Assembly: GCA_003550305.1 (NCBI GenBank)
Contig: QKYT01000136.1
Coordinates: forward strand, 33,803-69,755
DNA length: 35,953 bases
Direction: 5' to 3'
Origin: Glomus cerebriforme
Lineage: Eukaryota; Glomeromycota; Glomeromycetes; Glomerales; Glomeraceae
Shown here: positions 1,793 through 25,507 of the stretch, piece after piece
Numbering within the stretch: position 1 is the first letter of the stretch
Layout: every line of letters begins with the position of its first letter
The notes under the pieces: generated by a model
The model's database searches: none
What the model was told of the DNA's origin: nothing
The model's input: only the letters and a program-made list of their open reading frames with translations
Translations under genes and position numbers: made by a program

Positions 1793-1987
1793 CTAATCAT
1801 GAAGAATCTTCACAGTTTCATTATGTAAACTTATTACTAAATTCACATAATCTATAATATTTTGGATTTGTGAGTAATTGAGACTCAAAATGGCATCTGC
1901 ATTATAAAAGATCTGTTTAATTTTCTTTAGTCCCAATGTATTGAATAATTTATATAATTTTCTAGATCTAAGGATTTTTTGATACAT
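1793..1987 (-). pseudogene. Fragment with LF..IG..KIK / QIQNIIDY motif
   Basis: The minus-strand frame contains RKLYKLFNTLGLKKIKQ followed by SLNYSQIQNIIDYV. The fragment at 3171-3480 has the parallel motifs KNIYILFKEIEIDKIG and LTDVQIQNIINLY, so the two are diverged copies of one domain inside this window. I recall the same arrangement in uncharacterised expanded proteins of Rhizophagus. The fragment is too short to be an intact protein and no function is known. Bases 1988-2289 hold no gene I can support. Confidence 0.45.
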
Positions 1988-2289
1988 TCACACCTGTTAT
2001 TTTAGATAAAAGCTGTTTGATTTCTTAATATATTATAGATGTTGCAGTTTTTTTTTTAATTCCACCAGCAATAACTTACTGATAGTAGAATAGTCAATGA
2101 AAGAGAAAATAGAAAGCGCAAATTATTAGAGAGGAAACTAGTAAAAAGGGTGGTAATACAATGATTTTCTGAATATTTATTTACTTAATATTGCTGATAT
2201 ACTGATGTCATTAATACTGCATGCACTATATATAAAGTCATTTAAATAGATTTCTTTCTGATCTAGCTCTTATTATCTCATCTTTTAAA

Positions 2290-2571
2290 ATGTTTTATTT
2301 CTTATTTAGAGATTTTAGCTGTTGCTACTTAGTTGTATTCTTAGTGATAGCAAATATATTCTTAATACTAATAAATGTTATCGAAGTATTCCTTTTCTTA
2401 GATTATACTTTTAAGCTAAAAACAGATCAAGTGCAACTAGAAATCAATGTTACGAAAGAAAACCAAAATATCCAAATGGAAATTGCTAGAATAAATAACA
2501 AGCATCAAAGAGAAGTATCGAAGTTAATTGTAAACAATAAGGTAATTATAAAAAAAATAATAATTTTATAA
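2290..2571 (+). CDS. Hypothetical membrane-anchored small protein
   Basis: A 93-codon ORF starts at ATG 2290. Residues about 1-42 are strongly hydrophobic (FLVIANIFLILINVIEVFLF) and could form one or two membrane segments. Residues about 43-85 are charged and could form a short coiled coil (KLKTDQVQLEINVTKENQ). I do not recognise it. A GT at VNNK|GTAATT near 2540 could be a splice donor, so the real C-terminus may differ. It lies in AT-rich repeat territory with no conserved neighbour, so it could be fortuitous. Confidence 0.2.
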   Translation: MFYFLFRDFSCCYLVVFLVIANIFLILINVIEVFLFLDYTFKLKTDQVQLEINVTKENQNIQMEIARINNKHQREVSKLIVNNKVIIKKIIIL

Positions 2572-3170
2572 TCAAAAAGTCAAGAAATAAAGGAAAAATT
2601 AAAGAAATTTTTTTTTTACAGATGGCAGAGATAGTGCTCCAATTTTATACTTCTAATTCTCAATTAAACTATCTGTATCCTGGAAAATCAACAGATTAAT
2701 GTATATTTTTTATTTCATAATCCTTTTATTATGTAAATAATTAAATTGTCTTTATTAAATAAACTTTTTACAAATTACAGATACCAACAAGAACCTGCAA
2801 AGTACATTTGATTTGCTGCAACATCTTCTAGAAAAGTTAAAATTTTTTTCATAGCAATGATATAATGATTAAAAAATTACTGTATTTTGCATGATATCAT
2901 TTATTAGTAAACTTCCTGAAAAATTATTTCAAATCATGCTTTTTTTTCTCTTCTTCTTCTTAACTGTAGAAAAAAAGATAATTGTAGAATTATTTTATCA
3001 AGTGAAATGCTTACTTTTATTATTTAGTGCAATTGAAAATAAATAATATTTTTCTTTTTGCTTAATTAACTTTTTTCTACAAAGTGTTTAATGTTTGAAA
3101 CTATCTCTTTTTTTTCATATTCATTTGAAAAAAAAGATTAAAATTCCCAATTATTCATGCCGATTACTTT
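2572..3170. other. AT-rich non-coding stretch
   Basis: About 600 bases of T- and A-tracts. I see no ORF with recognisable protein character, no RNA gene and no clear repeat boundary. Confidence 0.5.
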
Positions 3171-4375
3171 TTAACATTTGATTAATTCTGCAATGTAAAG
3201 ATTTATTATATTCTGGATTTGTACATCAGTTAGCCTAGAGATCATATCAGTAATTACTCCAATTTTATCTATTTCTATTTCTTTAAACAAGATATAGATG
3301 TTTTTAGCTTTTTGTATCATCTTACGCAAATATTCTTTCTTTTTACTGGAGAGATACAGCTCCATTTTATTATAAATCTGCATTCTTGCTATTTGATTGC
3401 TAATATTATTTTCAAATTTAAGGGTGACAACCTTTTTTTTATATTCTTTACTATAGTAATACTATCGTAATTTTTCTTTCTGACCAGTTTTTTCAGTCTT
3501 ATCAAGTAAATGAACTAAATGAAGTACAGAACCTGAAGTTAGATTGACATCAATTGGAACATCTGGAATATGTTTGCTAGATATAGAATTCGATAAGGTT
3601 GTAGAATCATGACATCTAATCAATTCAAGTAATTCATATATTAAATCTTGTTCTACTTTCTGATTATAAAGAATTTTTGCCTCCTTGATTTCTCCTTGAT
3701 CTCTGATAAATTAACTTGTTTCTCTTCTATCTTCTGGAGTTTCATATGAACTAAGAAGAATTTCTTTGGAGCCAATTCTTTAACTATCTGTTTTGGAAGA
3801 TCATATTTAGTGTCAGTCATAGAGAGATCTGCTTCACGGTGTAATGATTCAAAAGTAGTTGAGGATGAGTTCTGTAAAAGCACGTGTGATTGGCTAAGTT
3901 TTTTTTTTTGATTTCTCTGCCTAATCTTATTACTAACCTTTTTCTTATACATCTCATTGTTTTCAGGTAGTAAAGTATCCATCAATAGTTTCTTATGATG
4001 TGTTATCATGAACATCTAATCTGCAACCAAATTGAAGTTAGATGAACTGTTATTAAAAAAATTATCATTTAGTTGATCCCTAAAGAATCACGTCTACCTC
4101 TGTTTCACTTTTATGAGTCTATCTTTAAACTCAATATTTTTTGATTTCAACTCCTTGATTCTGGTTTTGAGTTTGGCATTCTTGGCATCATGTCTCATTC
4201 TCTCTTTCTCAGTCATTCTTAGAGCCTTAGCAATCCTATATTTAAGTTCAGCTCTTTCAGCATCAAACTCTGAGATCTTTCTTCTAAAATCAGGTATTTC
4301 AGCATTCTTAACCTTAAGCTCTCTAATGCACTATCTTAATAATTCAAGCTTAGGATTAGCTTCATTAACTGACAT
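3171..4375 (-). pseudogene. Decayed coiled-coil lineage-family gene
   Basis: Reading from ATG 4375 on the minus strand, one frame gives a charged coiled-coil start (NEANPKLELLR, then KNAEIPDFRRKISEFDAERA and ALRMTEKERMRHDAKNAKLK) and runs to 3653. It is interrupted by TAG after LELLR, by TAG/TGA around 4097 and by TAG just before 4015. A shift of frame near 3655 then continues into LIYELLELIRCHDSTTLS, YYSKEYKKKVV and finally KNIYILFKEIEIDKIG plus VQIQNIINLY, ending at 3171. The order (N-terminal coiled coil, polar middle, YSKE segment, LF..I..DKI segment) is what I remember of an expanded, uncharacterised Rhizophagus-type family. The first TAG stands where a CAG glutamine is expected. It is broken and probably not expressed as protein. 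Confidence 0.6.
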
Positions 4376-4483
4376 GCATGATCAATAATAATTTTATATA
4401 TAAAAGGAATTGTTTAATATTCTGAAAAAATTTCTGGAACTGTGCAGTCTTGGAAAAATGCTAAGAAAATTTTTTTATTAATA

Positions 4484-4669
4484 TAGTCGTTTCCCTTTAT
4501 AAGCATTTCCTATTTAGTCACACCTCTCTTATAAGCACATTTATGCTTGGTTCAAGTTACTAATAATATTATTAAAAAAACCTTCTCTATAGTTACATCA
4601 TATAGGTTTTTTATAATCATACCTTTTTTTTTTAGTTCCGAGGGATGTGATTATATAGGAGGATGACTG
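4484..4669. mobile_element. TA-flanked MITE, Tc1/mariner-like ends
   Basis: A 186-bp AT-rich element flanked by TA dinucleotides (4482-4483 and 4670-4671). The left end reads TAGTCGTTTCCCTTTATAAG and the right end, read inward, CAGTCATCCTCCTATATAAT. These are degenerate inverted repeats of the same type as the elements at 33042-35063 (CAGT followed by a pyrimidine run and TATAATCA). TA duplication and CAGT termini fit the Tc1/mariner/pogo group. There is no coding capacity. Confidence 0.6.
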
Positions 4670-7916: not shown

Positions 7917-8265
7917 TCAGTATTATGATAATACAAATCAATCGGCAGTACATTTAGAGCCCATGTTTGAAAGGAAAATACTTGCCGATTCTTATAAGCT
8001 GTTATTAGAATTAATAAGGGATTTAATACCAATACAGAAAAATCTTAACATTAATGATAATCCCATTTTAGAAGAGGTACTCTGAAGCAATAAAGCTTCT
8101 ACAGATATTTCATTTGGAGAAATATTTAATTTGCTTATGTATTTGAAAGAAGATATAATAACAATTTAGGAAGAGTTTAAAATTGTTAGTTATACTAATC
8201 AAGAAATGGCAGAACATCAGAAAATTTTGAAGATATTAATATACATTAAAAAATACGTTAAATAA
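7917..8265 (+). pseudogene. Plus-strand relic with two nonsense codons
   Basis: From about 7917 one plus-strand frame gives QSAVHLEPMFERKILADSYK, then LLLELIRDLIPIQKNLNI and LEEVL, a TGA, SNKASTDISFGEIFNLLMYL, KEDIITI, a TAG, EEFKIVSYTNQEMAEHQKIL and a final TAA near 8265. The phrase IITI is followed by a TAG at 8170, while a related upstream copy near 7890-7918 reads IITIQKKF with CAG. That suggests CAG to TAG change. I do not recognise the family. It is a decayed helical protein-coding sequence. Confidence 0.4.
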
Positions 8266-8269
8266 CACT

Positions 8270-8712
8270 ATCAGTTGTTTAACATGTTGTAAAATACCTG
8301 TATATTGGAGTTTATCAATACATGCAGTAAACATATATGTTTTTCTATACTAACAGTTGTTAAACACATTATATACTGTTACGTAACACCCATATATTAA
8401 CATTACTTAATATTTTTTTAATATAATAAATAGTTATAATAAATAGTTATTATATAATTATAATTTTATTTATTTTAAATTTACTTATCTAATAAATATA
8501 TTAAAAAATAATTTTTTTATAAATTAAAATTAAAATTTTATTAAAATTTATTAAAAATCTTTAAAATCGNGTCCAGATTATTATATTGGCCAATATTAAA
8601 CATAATTTTAGCCAAATTCAAAAATAATTTGGGCCAAACCCATCTGATTAGTTTTGGAAATTTTTTTTTTAAAATATCTTACTACTGATACATCTTCTTT
8701 TTGTCACTATAA
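8270..8712. other. AT-rich spacer, possible promoter of array transcript
   Basis: No gene is visible. The segment 8570-8645 has GGCCAA and GGGCCAA words and low-copy-looking sequence. CTATAAAT occurs directly before the ATG at 8713 and could act as a TATA-like element for a transcript reading into the array. One ambiguous base lies at 8570. Confidence 0.25.
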
Positions 8713-8745
8713 ATGGGCGGAGGAAGCAGCAATGGCTCCTTTTCT
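8713..8745 (+). other. Possible leader exon of the intron-like array
   Basis: ATG at 8713 opens MGGGSSNGSFS (11 codons), immediately followed by a consensus donor GTAAGTACTA at 8746. It lies just upstream of the tandem intron-like array. It could be the first exon of a multi-exon transcript reading through that array. Joined to the first mini-exon as drawn it meets a stop after four codons, so protein coding across the array is not supported. Confidence 0.25.
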
Positions 8746-9218
8746 GTAAGTACTAATGACCTTTACCCATTCATGGAGAAGGAGTTTTTCACAAGATTGA
8801 TTAAAAAAAATCAAATTGAAAAAGAAAAAAAAATGAAAAAAGGCTCATTATATACTTTTTTGTATCATGTGTATCACATAATACGAGCTGCAGTTTATTT
8901 TTAAAAAAAAATAACTGCGCACTGCACTTATCAATTAAGTTGCAGCCACAGTTTATTTTAGTTATTAAATCATTTATTTAAACCTTAAATTGGTAACTTT
9001 TAATCATCATTTGAACTTTGAATTTTGTTCTAGAAATTGAGAAACAGTTAGTTTCTTTACAAAACTTACCATTTTTTTTTAATTTTTTTTAAAGAAACAT
9101 TTCCAACGTTTCTTCTTTGCCATTTTTTTTAATTTTTTTTTAAAGAAATATTTTTAATGTTTCTTCTTTTTTTTTGTAAGTATCTTGGTTTTTGATCTGA
9201 TACTGAAAAGTGAAAACT

Positions 9219-9243
9219 GGTAAGTTTCTTTGTGAAACTTACC
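9219..9243 (+). promoter_or_regulatory. Perfect hairpin over a 5' splice-like site
   Basis: GGTAAGTTTC, a 5-nt loop, then GAAACTTACC form a 10-bp perfect stem that would bury the whole 5' splice sequence. Similar arms recur at the start of most units in the array, several with a U-G pair replacing C-G. Confidence 0.7.
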
Positions 9244-10198
9244 ATTTTTTTGTTTTTTTTAAAAACGCTTATTAACGTTTCTTTTTTTTTCTTGTAAATT
9301 CTCTGAATTCTTCAGTCTAGACTGGGAAAGGAAAATGGTAAGTTTCTTTGCAAAACTTATCATTTTTTCATTTTTTTTTTAAAGAAACGTTTCTAACATT
9401 TTTTTTTCTTTTCTTGTAGGTTCTCTGAGCTCTTCGGTCTGGAATGAAAAGGAAAACGGTAAGTTTTTTTGTGAAACTTACCATTTTTTTTGTTTTTTTT
9501 TTAAAAAATGCTTATTAACATTTCTTTTTTTNTTCTTGTAGGTTCTTCGAGCTCTTCAGTCCAGAATAGGAAAGGAAAATGGTAAATTTCTTCATGAAAC
9601 TTATTATTTTTTTCATTTTTTTTTAAAGAAACGTTTCTAATGTTTCTTCTTTTTTTTCTTATAGGTTCTCTGTGCTTTCAGTTCAATACTNGAATCAAAA
9701 ATGGTAAGTTTCTCAAGTTTCTTTAAGAAACTTACCGTGTTTTTTTTGGGTTTCTTTTATTAGAAATATTTCTAACATTTTTTTTCTTTTTCTTTTGTAG
9801 GTTCTTTTTGCTTTTAGATTAGTACGTGAAATTGGGAATGGTAAGTTTCTTCATGAAACTTGCTATTTTTTTCTTTTTTTAGAACTATTTTTAATGATTC
9901 TTTTTCTTTTCTTGTAGACTCTCCTTCGGTTTAGATACTTGGAATTAGAAAATGGTAAGTTTTATAATGAAACTTACCATTCTTTTTTTTTGTTTTTTTA
10001 AATAGAAACGTTTTTAATGTTTCTTCTTTTTTCTTCTTATAGGTTCTTGGATTTCATTTTGGGTATAGAAATTTCTTTATAAAATTACCATCTGATACAT
10101 TTACTTAAAGAATCGTTAGTAAAAACAGTACTAATATTTCTTTTTTTTTATTTTTTTATAGGATCGGGCTTTTTTTGATTTTAGCTTAGAAATCTGGT

Positions 10199-10226
10199 AA
10201 GTTTTGAAGTTATAACTTCAAAACTT
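10199..10226. repeat. 28-bp perfect palindrome at a donor-like site
   Basis: AAGTTTTGAAGTTA is followed directly by its own complement. It overlaps the GTAAGT of the unit starting at 10197 and so is an extreme version of the donor hairpin seen in its neighbours. Confidence 0.7.
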
Positions 10227-10777
10227 TCTTTTCAGAATGTAAGTTTCATAATAAAACTTTATTTCAGTTTCTTAAGTCCAGAAGCAAACTTACAAAAAAG
10301 AAACATTCAATTAGACATTTCTTAAAATAAAAAAACAAAAAAAATGTAAGTTTTATAACGTTAATTTTGTTATGAAACTTCATTTTTTTTTGGTTTTTTC
10401 TTTAAGAAATGTTTTAACTAAATGTTTTTTCTTTTTTTTTTGTAGATTCAGCTCTGAAAACAGAAACGAAAATGTAAGTTTCGTAATGTTCATTTCGCTA
10501 CAAGCTTCATTTTCATTTTTTTTCTTTGTATAGAAATATTCTAACTGAATGTTTCTTTTCTTTTGTAGATTCAACTTTGAAAATAGAAACGTAAGTTTCG
10601 TAATATTTATTTTGTTACAAGCTTTATTTTTTATTTTTTTTTCTTTATATAGAAACATTTTAACTGTACGTTTCTTCTTTTTTTTGTAGATTCAGCTTTA
10701 AAAATGGAAACAGAAATATAAGTTTCATAATGTTCATTTCGTTACAAACTTCGTTTTTCATTTTTTTTCTTTGTATA

Positions 10778-10800
10778 GAAACGTTCTAACCGAACGTTTC
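10778..10800 (+). promoter_or_regulatory. Hairpin presenting CTAAC branch-point-like loop
   Basis: GAAACGTTC, loop TAACC, GAACGTTTC: a perfect 9-bp stem. The loop carries the CTAAC core expected of a fungal branch point, about 30 nt before the acceptor-like end. Sister units have weaker or wobble-paired versions of the same stem. Confidence 0.6.
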
Positions 10801-11040
10801 TTCTTTTTTTGTAAGTTCGCTCCTGGACTTGGGATACCGAAATGTAAGTTTTATAATGAATGTTTCGTTATGAAACTTTATTTTTTCATTTTTTTTTGTT
10901 AAAAATGTTCTAATCGAATATTTTTCTTTTTTGTAGATTTGGTTTGTTCCTTGAAATTTGGATTTTTGGGAATCAGAAACATAAGTTTTGCAACTTAGCT
11001 GCGAAACTTAGTTACTTTTTTGTAGATTCTGGATTTGAAT

Positions 11041-11518
11041 ATTAGAATTGAATAGTTAGTTAGTATAGTATAATTAGTATATGATCTAGGAAGAATTTGT
11101 AATTTAATACATTTTTAATAAATGAAAATAGTTTAAACATAATAAAATCAATTAATAATGCTTCTATTTATTAATTGTAGTTAATATATGCTAAAATTTG
11201 TAATTTTTCAACTAATAATATGCATTTTTCAACTAACCTAGTGTTGTTATACGCATTTTTAAACTGCTGTTATTTTACTATATGTTGTTATACATCTAAA
11301 AAAGTTTTGCACAATGCATTTTTAATCATGTTGATTGACAAAGGATTCATTGCACAACACTTTTTTGGTGTTGAGCAACACATGGTATATGTTTATACTT
11401 TATATATCTGTTCAAAACTTCCTGATGAAGTTAGCTAATCTATATTTTTTTCACATAGGGAATATATATGTGTATAATCTAACAAAAAAACAAAATTAGC
11501 TATAGTGTGAAGTGATCA
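11041..11518. other. Non-coding stretch after the array
   Basis: AT-rich sequence. A 72-codon plus-strand ORF at 11220-11438 (MHFSTNLVLLYAFLNCCYFT...) is hydrophobic and Cys-rich but has no recognisable domain, and I do not support it as a gene. Confidence 0.3.
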
Positions 11519-14841: not shown

Positions 14842-17294
14842 TTATGCTATTACCATGCTGTGCCTTACTTTCATGCTTCTTCTTTTGACAGTAATCCATC
14901 CGTCATTTCCATCATCTTTCTTTGGCCTTGGTATGGGTTGATTATTACTATTATTATTTTCACTAGATTCAATGTTTGCTTGAGGGGTAGCTGCTACTCC
15001 ATTTGATTGAGAAGGTTCAACAACACTTTTACGTTTTGATTTAGTAGAAGTTGATGATGGTGAATCAACATCATTTGATGCATTACCATTGGTCTTTGAT
15101 AATGATTTAGAAGACGATTTAGAAGAACGAGGAGATACAGGCGTTGTAGGAGGCGTTGCAGGCGTTATAGGCGTAGTATACGTGGATAAAGCTGCCAATT
15201 CTTTACTCTTTGCATCCGCTAATTCACGTGCTTTTTTCGATGATTCTAGTAATTCAGAATTTTCGGCTCTTAATTTTTCATTTTCTTTCATCAATTTTTC
15301 TACAGTACGAACTATGGGGGGGGGGAGAAAAAAGAGAAGAAAAAGAACAGTCAATAAAACATACATATTTTAAAATGGGATATTAATGTGCTAAATACCT
15401 TGAATCCTCATTTCTTCAATTTGTTGTTGTAATCTTGCATTTTGGTTATCGAGTTGATTATATCGTTCTAAACAGAGAGAAAAGAAGGTTAATTAATTAT
15501 TTTTTTTTTCAAATCCATAGAGGATAATAGATTATATAATTTGTACAAACCTTTGTCGTGAGTTAAGTTATCAACTTTAGTTCTTAATTCAGAAATGGAA
15601 CGTTCATTACGTTTCTTTTCCCATTCTTTTGCTTCCTTAGTAGCTTTTAATTCAGCTTTAATACCAGATAATTCAAGTCTCAAATTTTCCACAGAAGAAT
15701 TATCCAATGATTCCAGTTTAGATTTTGAAGATTGTAATTCACTTTTAGCATTCTCTAGTTCAGTTTTAGTTTGCATAAAATTTTTATGTAAAGAATCATA
15801 CTGATCTTTTGGAATCATGTTACGAATTATAGTCTGTTGTTGTTGAATCATAACTTCTTTAACATCAAGTTGTGAACTTAATTCTTTCAAAGAATTACTT
15901 TGATTTTCTAAATCTTTTTGAATATTATGCACAGAACTATGTACACTTTCTAATTCAGATTTAGTATTATCAAGTTCATGTAAAGCTTTATTACGTTGAT
16001 CGGTAATATTTTGTAATTCCAAAGTAGTTGATTTCAAAGTAGAATCACGTTGGGATAGATCATTTTTAAGTTTTTCAACTTTGGATTTAATTTCTTCATT
16101 TTCTTGTTGAAATTTTTCTAATTTTTCTTGAATGGGTTTATCAATGGAACTTTCTTTTTGAGAATTTTTTGCAATTTCAACTTCTTTCTTAGTTAAATCC
16201 AAATCAGAATTCAATTTATTAATTTGTTCTTCATAAACAACTTTTAATTTAGAAGCTTCTTCTTTAGTAACATTAAGTTGTTGAACAAGTTTTTCATATT
16301 CATTTTTCTGATTTTGTTGATCAGCGGTTTGTTTTTCAACAAGATTTTGAAAATCAGATTTAAGTTGATTAATTAAATTATCTTTTTCCGCCCTTTCAGC
16401 AACAAGTTTTTCAGATTCTTCTTTAGAAGATTTTAAATTTAAAGTAATTTTTTCCAATTCATCATGAACAGATTGAACAGATTTAATATGTTTTTCAGAT
16501 TCTTTCTTACTAGCAGCCAAATCAGAATTTAATTGTTGTATAGTAGAATCACGTTGTTCTAATTGAGATTTAAGTTGAATAATTTCATGTTTATTAATCT
16601 CCAACGTTACACGAGATTCCGATTCAGATTTAACAGAATCTTGAGCTTCTTTTTTATTAATAGAAAGTTCTTTAGTCAAATTTTCAACAGTAGATTTTTG
16701 TTCTTGAAGTTGATTTTTAATTTTTTCCAATTCAGATTTTTCATTATTAATTTCTTGTTTAGCATTTAATAAATCAGATTCAAGTTGTTGAATAGTAGAA
16801 TCTTTTTGTTTTAATTCAGATTTTAATTGATCAACCTCATTATTATTATCAACCAAAGTAATATCACGTGAATGTTGATCGGAGGTCACGGAATGATCAT
16901 CGCTACTATTTCTTGCGGATAATTTTTCAACTTGAGATAATAAATCATGATTACGTTTTTCAAAATCCAATTTTTGTTGACGTTCAACTTCATGTTCATA
17001 CTTTACTCTATCCAATTCTAATTTTAAACTTTGTATCAATTTTTCATGATCACCATCTCCTTTTGTTTCAGGTTGTGGTTCATTTGATACAAGAACGCTC
17101 TTTCGATTTTTAATAATACTATTTCTATTACTTTTATTACCATTACTATTATTGTTGTTGTTATCATCGATAACAACACTACTTCTATCCTTTTTTCGAA
17201 AGCTTTTTACTTTTGTTAAGAAACCACTACTTTTACTTTCACCATTTTCGGTATTGGAACTGTTATTACTGGAGTTTTTACCTAGGGGTTTCAT
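14842..17294 (-). CDS. Three-exon long coiled-coil protein, 760 residues
   Basis: Exons on the minus strand: 17294-15551, 15467-15399 and 15311-14842. Donors are GTTTGT and GTATTT; acceptors are TTTAG and CATAG. The frame is open throughout, 760 residues. Residues about 1-85 are Ser/Asn-rich with basic patches (TKVKSFRKKDRSSVV, a poly-Asn run). From about 86 to 640 it is an almost unbroken heptad-type coiled coil with repeated phrases such as IQQLESDL, IQQLNSDL and LNSDLDLTKKE, indicating internal duplication. Residues about 650-740 are low complexity (TTPITPATPPTTPVSPRSS). The C-terminus GNDGWITVKRRSMKVRHSMV is a short ordered, basic tail. I cannot name a family; a cytoskeletal, tethering or scaffold role is only suggested by the architecture. 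The ATG at 17294 was chosen as the first in frame. Confidence 0.85.
15316..15325 (+). repeat. 10-G homopolymer in intron 2 of coiled-coil gene
   Basis: A pure run of ten G on the plus strand, which is a C-rich tract directly before the 3' splice site on the coding strand. It may be prone to slippage or sequencing error. Confidence 0.8.
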
Positions 17295-17483
17295 GATGTT
17301 TTTTTCCAAAAAAGGTATTTTTTTTTAAAGAAACAATAAAGGATTCCGAATAAATATTAAGAATAGGATTAAAAATAAATATGGTAAAAAAAATGGGTAC
17401 AAAAGTTATAAAAGAGAAAAAAAAACGCAAAAAAAAGTTTTTTTTGAATAAATATAAAAAAAAATATCAAATTTTTTTTTTTT
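17295..17483. other. Upstream region of coiled-coil gene, poly-A/T
   Basis: It contains the likely promoter and 5' leader of the minus-strand coiled-coil gene, made of homopolymer A and T tracts. It ends at the assembly gap. Confidence 0.4.
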
Positions 17484-24136: not shown

Positions 24137-25438
24137 ATGCTGCTTCACGGTATAAATTATCGATTTTTAATTAATCAATTTTCTATTACCGCGACTCTTT
24201 TATCTTCACCTTTATTGTATTCTTATATTTCTGTTGTACCTGGACTTTCAAATTCTGTTTTTAGTTGTTCGAACTTTCCGTTTAATAAAGTAAAAGAAAC
24301 CACTAGTTTACGACCATATTCTTTAAAAATGGCTTGGTATTGTTCTGCTAATAATAACGACGGCCTTGTAAATAACTTGAAATCGGCCCGAATCATTAAA
24401 TCAGAGAAAGTTGAGAAAGCTATGAAAGCTGTCGATAGAAAAAATTATGTGTCCCAAAGCCCATATAAAGATTCTCCTCAACAAATAGGTTTCGGTGCCA
24501 CTATTTCTGCACCGTAAGCACATCGATATATTGATTTTTTTTTATTAATAATAATATAAGTTAAATAATCCAGAATGCATTTTTTTATGAAGCCATATGC
24601 ATGCTCACGCTCTCCAAAATTTGGAACCTTTTTTGCAGCCCGGTATGAAAGGTAAAGTGAAAAGGAAAAAATAATCATTCATTTCATTTTATATTTAACA
24701 CATGATATATATGTAGTTTTGGACGTCGGATGCGGATCTGGATATTTAACGACTTGCTTTGCAGAAATGGTACATTAAAAGTTGGTTTATCAAGTTCTTT
24801 GTCTTTATTTTTATTTATTTTATGTATATTATAAAGGTTGGACCGGAAGGAAAAGTTATTGGCATGGAACATATTAAGGGACTTGTAGACCTATCAAGAA
24901 AGAATATCCAAAAAGATCGACCGGACCTTTTGGAATCTCAAAGAGTCATTTTGGTTTATGGAGATGGAAGAAAAGGTTACCCGGAAGAGGCACTTTATGA
25001 TTGCATGTACATTATTCGTTCATAATATCATTTTTTTTTATTTGTTACAATTTACCAACATTTAACTTTGGATCCGTACAGTCACGTTGGTGCTGCTGCA
25101 GAAAAAACGCCACAAGCATTGATCGATCAATTGAATGCACCTGGACGGTATGTATACGGGACAACTAAATTTATAGGATATATGAATTTAATTAAATTCA
25201 ATGTCACATTTAAAATAGATTGTTCATTCCGGTTGGAAGCTATTCTCAGTCCATTTATCAAATTGACAAAGATGAAAATGGAAACGTTACACAGAAGGAA
25301 ATTATGGGAGTTATGGTACTGTATTGATACAAGCTGATAATAATTCGATTTTATTTATTTATTTTTTATTTAATCGAATTCGTGTCTTTTTTATAGTATG
25401 TCCCCCTTACAGATGCTGATAAACAATGGTCACCATAA
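24137..25438 (+). CDS. PCMT1: Protein-L-isoaspartate O-methyltransferase
   Basis: Seven exons: 24137-24513, 24593-24651, 24717-24769, 24837-25006, 25082-25147, 25219-25315 and 25397-25438, all with GT..AG introns and one open frame. The enzyme methylates L-isoaspartyl residues in ageing proteins with S-adenosylmethionine, starting their repair. Family motifs are intact: [20 protein letters not shown] (substrate site), [12 protein letters not shown] (AdoMet motif I), GKVIGMEHI (motif post-I), YDCIHVGAAA (motif II), [16 protein letters not shown] (motif III) and [15 protein letters not shown] at the end. The family start (MAW...) is at 24329, giving 223 residues as is usual. The same frame is open upstream to ATG 24137, adding 64 residues with almost no acidic residues ([18 protein letters not shown]), like a mitochondrial presequence. 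Two forms may be made. It is convergent with the HAD gene. Confidence 0.96.
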
Positions 25439-25507
25439 GATCTATCTTTTGCACAGTGAATGCTTTATAGTTATAGCATTAAGGAGATAGTAAATTATTT
25501 TAGTATA

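Follow-up and report, generated by a model that had tools for sequence, protein, structure and literature searches.

The array of intron-shaped units described here forms the interior of a dispersed 3.2-kb element with 14-bp terminal inverted repeats (TIR), located at 8215-11427 of the window, by which we mean the whole stretch of 35,953 nucleotides that was analysed. The element probably belongs to a family of non-autonomous, TIR DNA-transposon-like elements in the arbuscular mycorrhizal fungus Glomus (Rhizophagus) cerebriforme that carries a tandemly amplified cassette of intron plus mini-exon spliceable by the host. The copy found in the window consists of the following parts:

8213-8214, no strand: left copy of the 2-bp target site duplication (TSD), AA, identical to 11428-11429
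8215-8228, + strand: left TIR, CATCAGAAAATTTT in the window copy and CATCAGGAAGTTTT in its commonest form, at the homology boundary among copies
8215-9045, + strand: left arm, about 80-92 % identical between copies
8713-8745, + strand: putative first exon (ATG at 8713, reading MGGGSSNG...), followed by the donor GTAAGT at 8746-8751
9045-10161, + strand: subfamily-1 intron units, with introns of about 77-94 nt and mini-exons mostly of 37-40 nt
10162-10345, + strand: subfamily junction, a 35-nt exon followed by rearranged sequence; part of a unit lies in inverted orientation at about 10263-10379
10346-10980, + strand: subfamily-2 intron units, with introns of about 93-100 nt, mini-exons mostly of 28-30 nt and a last exon of about 44 nt
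10981-11025, + strand: last intron-like segment of 45 nt, with the donor ATAAGT in the window copy
11026-11427, + strand: right arm, with AATAAA at 11117-11122 and a subterminal inverted repeat seen by eye
11414-11427, - strand: right TIR, AAAACTTCCTGATG, placed by the homology boundary and by end matches genome-wide
11428-11429, no strand: right copy of the TSD (AA), equal to the left copy

A profile built from 101 units finds 15 tandem matches on the + strand of the window copy (9045-10962), and the 45-nt terminal segment, which was read directly from the sequence, closes the array. The first-pass annotation had proposed a tandem array of about 15 intron-shaped units with two sequence subfamilies in its two halves, and both claims are borne out by these matches and by comparison of the units. 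Its description of the units as starting with GTAAGT holds for 9 of the 14 donors extracted from the window and fails for the other five. GTAAAT and GTTAGT, found once each, bring the donors starting with GT to 11 of 14, and the remaining three are TCAAGT (with a GTAAGT 10 nt upstream), GAAATT and ATAAGT. The unit at about 9117-9216 is missing its 5' part.

Applied to 9046-11040, a strict grammar that requires a donor, a branch point, a pyrimidine tract and an AG hits 10 donors, all of them on the + strand. For comparison, the 32.7 kb of window sequence flanking the element yield a single hit, again on the + strand, and 500 order-1 Markov versions of the array average 0.22 hits, with a maximum of 3. 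The pattern of the array is genuine, stranded and not explained by composition.

We extracted 320 introns from the copies, of which 271 passed our filter (157 of subfamily 1 and 114 of subfamily 2). TAAC or TAAT precedes the pyrimidine tract in 153/157 subfamily-1 and 106/114 subfamily-2 introns, at a median distance from the acceptor of 25 nt and 27 nt respectively. Both the GT and the AG are retained in 101/157 and 59/114 introns. As delimited by our script, most introns measure 77-90 nt in subfamily 1 and 92-101 nt in subfamily 2. The window also contains, at 24137-25440, a gene with a protein-L-isoaspartate O-methyltransferase (PCMT) domain (PF01135) and several short introns. By eye, the splice signals of these introns are weaker than those of the array and the array introns should therefore be recognisable to the same spliceosome.

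The introns also tend to form two hairpins. A 5' stem of at least 7 pairs holding the donor is found in 147/157 subfamily-1 introns compared to 18/157 after shuffling; in subfamily 2 the excess is modest (102/114 compared to 71/114). A second stem spans the branch point in 148/157 subfamily-1 introns (48 when shuffled) and 109/114 subfamily-2 introns (51 when shuffled). Folding of single introns gives z scores below -2 relative to mononucleotide shuffles for 17 of 25 introns in subfamily 1 and 14 of 25 in subfamily 2, and RNAalifold run on 60 introns of each subfamily against column shuffles returned no consensus structure. In position-wise majority sequences both stems are present in 9 of 10 positions, the exception being P6, for which the cut was made at another donor. 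Ahead of exon P9, the intron keeps its 5' stem through a G-C pair where the other positions have T-A, and the GT is thereby lost; a nearby GTATGG could act as donor. This single case favours a role for the stem itself.

One explanation for the palindromes that does not involve splicing is that the array is a satellite-like internal repeat of the transposon whose palindromes bind a transposase or a host factor, the likeness to introns being a by-product. Non-autonomous transposons commonly contain internal tandem repeats, every unit has two palindromes, and the stem before P9 is maintained at the cost of the GT, all of which would fit such binding sites. DNA binding, however, does not need a branch point, a pyrimidine tract and a TAG at fixed spacing on one strand, and many of the units agree with splice models in the database; we consider this explanation unlikely. 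The idea of intron-shaped units amplified in tandem is strengthened by the hairpins, the branch point, the strand bias and the database gene models that share many of the sites.

For the spliceable cassette that we favour, the following course of events is suggested. The element would carry one Pol II-type transcription unit. A cassette made of one U2-type intron of about 80-100 nt and one exon of about 28-40 nt would have been duplicated in tandem inside the element, and the element with its two-subfamily array would then have dispersed, presumably by a cut-and-paste mechanism. Transcription, if it occurs, would start in the left arm and the host spliceosome would remove the array introns one by one. 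The two hairpins, one with the donor and the other at the branch point some 25 nt before the acceptor, may keep each donor with its own acceptor among near-identical introns and so limit exon skipping.

The boundaries of the element are sharp. Homology between copies begins abruptly at window position 8215 in 12 of 12 aligned copies and ends abruptly at 11427 in 15 of 16 copies, with one locus (L016) stopping early; the flanks beyond the boundaries are unique. We surveyed 21 loci (20 fetched plus the window) for target site duplications and located both ends in 12 elements. The flanking 2-bp sequences match in 8 of these (TA four times, and AT, TT, TG and AA) and mismatch in 4. One of the eight matching elements, in L009, is a composite in which both the left and the right end occur twice, and its TSD matches with the outer left end only. 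The inverted repeats CATCAGGAAGTTTT and AAAACTTCCTGATG at shared boundaries and the target site duplication are features of a TIR DNA transposon. Like non-autonomous members of that class, the family has a 14-bp TIR, a 2-bp TSD, dispersed copies, a variable number of internal repeats and no transposase seen; unlike them, its internal repeat is a cassette of intron and mini-exon with full splice signals.

To describe the dispersal of the family, the genome (112.5 Mb, 1117 contigs) was searched with different parts of the element. Two parts of the array have at least 202 and at least 193 matches, the left arm at least 42 and the right arm at least 46. A degenerate 17-mer of the element end, able to match either end of an element, has 98 matches in the 112.5 Mb compared to 4 (2+2) for the reversed control. 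We fetched 30 end loci with this 17-mer, some of them overlapping and two of them belonging to the window copy; array matches are present in 20 and absent from 10. Most of these 10 have in common with the family just the final 80-225 bp of the right arm, L056, which is largely N, shares nothing, and some are truncated by contig ends or by runs of N. The copies examined contain 11 to 30 units, the longest of them being composite or interrupted. The first-pass annotation had envisaged, as the case against its reading, a unit present elsewhere merely as an ordinary satellite; the unit is found instead inside a dispersed transposon-like element, plus a few short fragments.

Some loci depart from the typical copy. 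Six of them (L030, L036, L047, L049, L052 and L057) have right ends of the family, corresponding to the last 180-415 bp, with zero or two array matches nearby; these may represent a sister family or deletion products. L059 (C99:81500-82600) contains at about 342-720 a short, little-decayed relative with a left TIR recognised by eye, a brief left arm and three unit matches with intact CpG sites.

We looked for a transposase that may mobilise the family. The genome has 34 Plavaka and 27 Transposase_21 matches, and a comparison by eye indicates that their positions do not track the element ends; the same is true, by eye, of 40 scored places of one such transposase. The closest Plavaka matches lie on C490, about 2.3 kb away from an array, and on C900, about 5.5 kb away from an end; the closest Transposase_21 matches lie on C838, about 7 kb away from an end, and on C837, where the match adjoins a left arm (L073). 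Because the genomic matches do not follow the end positions, neither a CACTA-type (PF02992) nor a Plavaka (PF18759) transposase was accepted as the element's own, and no transposase bearing these TIRs was found among the Plavaka and Transposase_21 matches in the genome. At L073 (C837:42400-47800), open frames on the - strand at 1795-4549 with a Transposase_21 match adjoin a left arm and two array units. The transposase call at this locus is based on the PF02992 match, four L073 frames having no Pfam match above the cut-off, and the other scored places of this transposase sequence are not located at CATCAGG ends. It is probably a nested or neighbouring CACTA-like element. A search of the whole window at the Rfam gathering cut-off gave 0 matches; relaxing the threshold to E up to 1 on 8215-11430 gave a single match to a miRNA family, which was rejected at 24 bits for a cut-off of 101.

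We then compared introns and exons between positions of the array, using nine classes (P9 and the last exons left out) and majority sequences that lean to C and G. Introns of different positions have a mean identity of 83 % in subfamily 1 (79 % without T runs) and 88 % in subfamily 2 (91 % without T runs), compared to 58 % and 66 % respectively for the exons. Introns without T runs score above exons in 17 of 18 position pairs. The better conservation of intron parts relative to exon parts is the opposite of an ordinary gene. The relationship between exons of different positions can still be recognised, with up to 0.77 identity, and the intron-exon cassettes were therefore duplicated whole. After duplication the introns seem to have been held more constant, either because splicing or structure was under selection or through homogenisation.

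An intron that is more alike between positions than its exons could also be expected if the intron unit itself were mobile, in the manner of an introner, and single introns entered host genes from the element, which would serve as their nursery. To look for such single units, we searched the genome with two palindrome patterns, which gave 161 and 71 matches, the first pattern being self-complementary but for one base so that many places are counted twice. Twelve places were picked by eye, among the matches listed, as absent from earlier lists, and were sampled in stretches of 1.1 kb or shorter: seven have at least 4 units, one has 3, one has 2 and three have 1. These three single-unit places come with or without a partial neighbour and would be in line with a mobile intron, but two of them are one duplicated locus and no single unit was demonstrated inside a host gene among the 12 places. 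The related exons argue that units were duplicated whole, and the TIR and TSD sit at the ends of the element rather than at those of the introns. We regard a mobile intron unit as very unlikely. The suggestion of introner-like elements made in the first-pass annotation is not upheld: it is the 3.2-kb element, and not the introns, that is delimited by the TIR and TSD, and the element is for that reason not an introner as defined.

Another question is whether the array encodes a protein. In this explanation the element contains a protein-coding repeat gene, in which in-frame mini-exons yield peptide repeats of 13 and 10 residues and the protein varies in repeat number. Exons of 39 and 30 nt do preserve the frame, but the lengths 40, 37, 28 and 29 break it. 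In the exons as cut by our script from 21 loci including the window, the remainders 0/1/2 modulo three number 56/73/16 among 145 subfamily-1 exons and 27/44/35 among 106 subfamily-2 exons, in agreement with the earlier remark that mini-exon lengths vary modulo three. Altogether 83/251 exons are divisible by three and 168/251 are not, and the script-cut lengths show extra peaks at 24 and 48 nt. The longest spliced open stretches tend to the forward strand, yet the forward strand is longer in just 16 of 31 spliced runs, the reverse complement in 14, with one equal; the length of the spliced open frame gives no separation and was discarded as a strand discriminator.

A single stop-poor reading path nevertheless recurs in several copies and in predicted proteins (FSELFGPEWEGKT, VLCAFSSILESET, VLFAFRLVREIGN, SPSVRALGIRK and FLDFISG), as expected of a coding gene. 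We counted changes among copies in seven exon classes, using copies of modal length only and a path picked afterwards. Nonsense changes in the path frame are fewer than expected (6 observed, 10.9 expected, ratio 0.55), which would support coding; against it, synonymous changes (156 observed, 140.8 expected, ratio 1.11) and nonsynonymous changes (258 observed, 264.5 expected, ratio 0.98) are both near neutrality. In every frame the substitutions among copies appear close to neutral, and a living protein is therefore not supported. The array may have encoded an ancestral short protein. Together with the absence of any homologue outside G. cerebriforme in the word-limited protein searches by mini-exon query and profile, these results make a protein-coding repeat gene rather improbable.

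Those searches did reveal how the arrays have been annotated. A query of spliced mini-exons matches 12 predicted proteins, all named 'hypothetical protein C1645_...' of Glomus cerebriforme, and a profile of seven of them, scored on the 7993 candidates with the most shared words, finds 42, again all from G. cerebriforme. Pooling both gives 47 distinct predicted proteins of this species, a few of which have weak E-values near 1e-3. P0002 (MGGGSSNG) and P0009 (MGEGSNNG) start like the first exon of the left arm, the donor position of which is GTAGGT in the consensus of 18 aligned left arms compared to GTAAGT in the window. From three proteins tried, P0005 and P0007 could be mapped exactly to the arrays L011 and L018, and the mapping of P0011 to L009 gave no result. 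The splice path obtained for P0005 and P0007 is one workable path from our script, perhaps not that of the annotators; 17 of its 24 donors are unit donors (GTAAGTTT or GTAAATTT) and 7 are other GT dinucleotides. The database gene models over the arrays may be ab initio.

P0005 joins mini-exons of the array at L011 to two exons (294 and 209 nt) that lie about 1 kb downstream, which may reflect a chimeric gene model or a genuine read-through from the element. Elsewhere in the window, a 606-residue open frame at 15489-17309 (- strand) resembles a long coiled coil and has no Pfam match. Micro-exon genes consist of rows of many very short exons. The element resembles them in its run of very short exons and differs in that its exons are asymmetric, its substitutions near-neutral and its location within a transposon. 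The first-pass annotation had considered a micro-exon gene at this position; annotators have indeed predicted genes there, but the near-neutral substitutions among copies in every frame speak against one.

Copies of the element differ mostly by C-to-T and G-to-A changes, most strongly at CpG. The frequency of C-to-T is 0.17 outside CpG and 0.42 within CpG, compared to 0.01 for T-to-C, a direction that is partly built in as the reference leaned to C/G. Decay through methylation or a RIP-like process may have produced such a pattern. The present copies are decaying.

Known systems share some of these features. According to PMC9860276, introners insert into many genes and some introner families carry TIRs and TSDs like DNA transposons. 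The array introns resemble introners in that they carry spliceosomal signals and exist in many near-identical copies; they differ in being arranged in tandem within one larger element that is itself bounded by the TIR and TSD. The main text of PMC9860276 has no match to Glom or Rhizophagus, and we found no introner report for Glomeromycotina in the open-licence literature searched. SP7-like effectors, which are repeat proteins of related, arbuscular mycorrhizal fungi, have one conserved intron preceding the first repeat according to the gene structures given in PMC11333574, unlike the element, with its intron for each repeat. A link to these effectors was rejected because the gene structure described there differs from that of the array. 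No described counterpart of a tandem mini-intron transposon was found among the open-licence papers searched, including the relevant passages of PMC9860276, PMC8786786, PMC11075540 and PMC11333574; one may exist elsewhere.

More speculatively, it is conceivable, though in our judgement doubtful, that the transposon carries splicing as its cargo. The tandem, self-structured introns would then be spliced out of a transcript, leaving a short mosaic RNA, and pieces lost from the element could seed introns in host genes, making it an intron factory distinct from introners. If the array is spliced, it would provide a natural series of near-identical introns for studying the pairing of donors and acceptors; it would also act as a mobile supply of intron cassettes in a lineage without introner reports in our searches. 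Spliced or not, up to 47 hypothetical proteins of G. cerebriforme in the database appear to be derived from a decaying transposon. Such transposon-derived protein models would inflate the species-specific gene count of G. cerebriforme.
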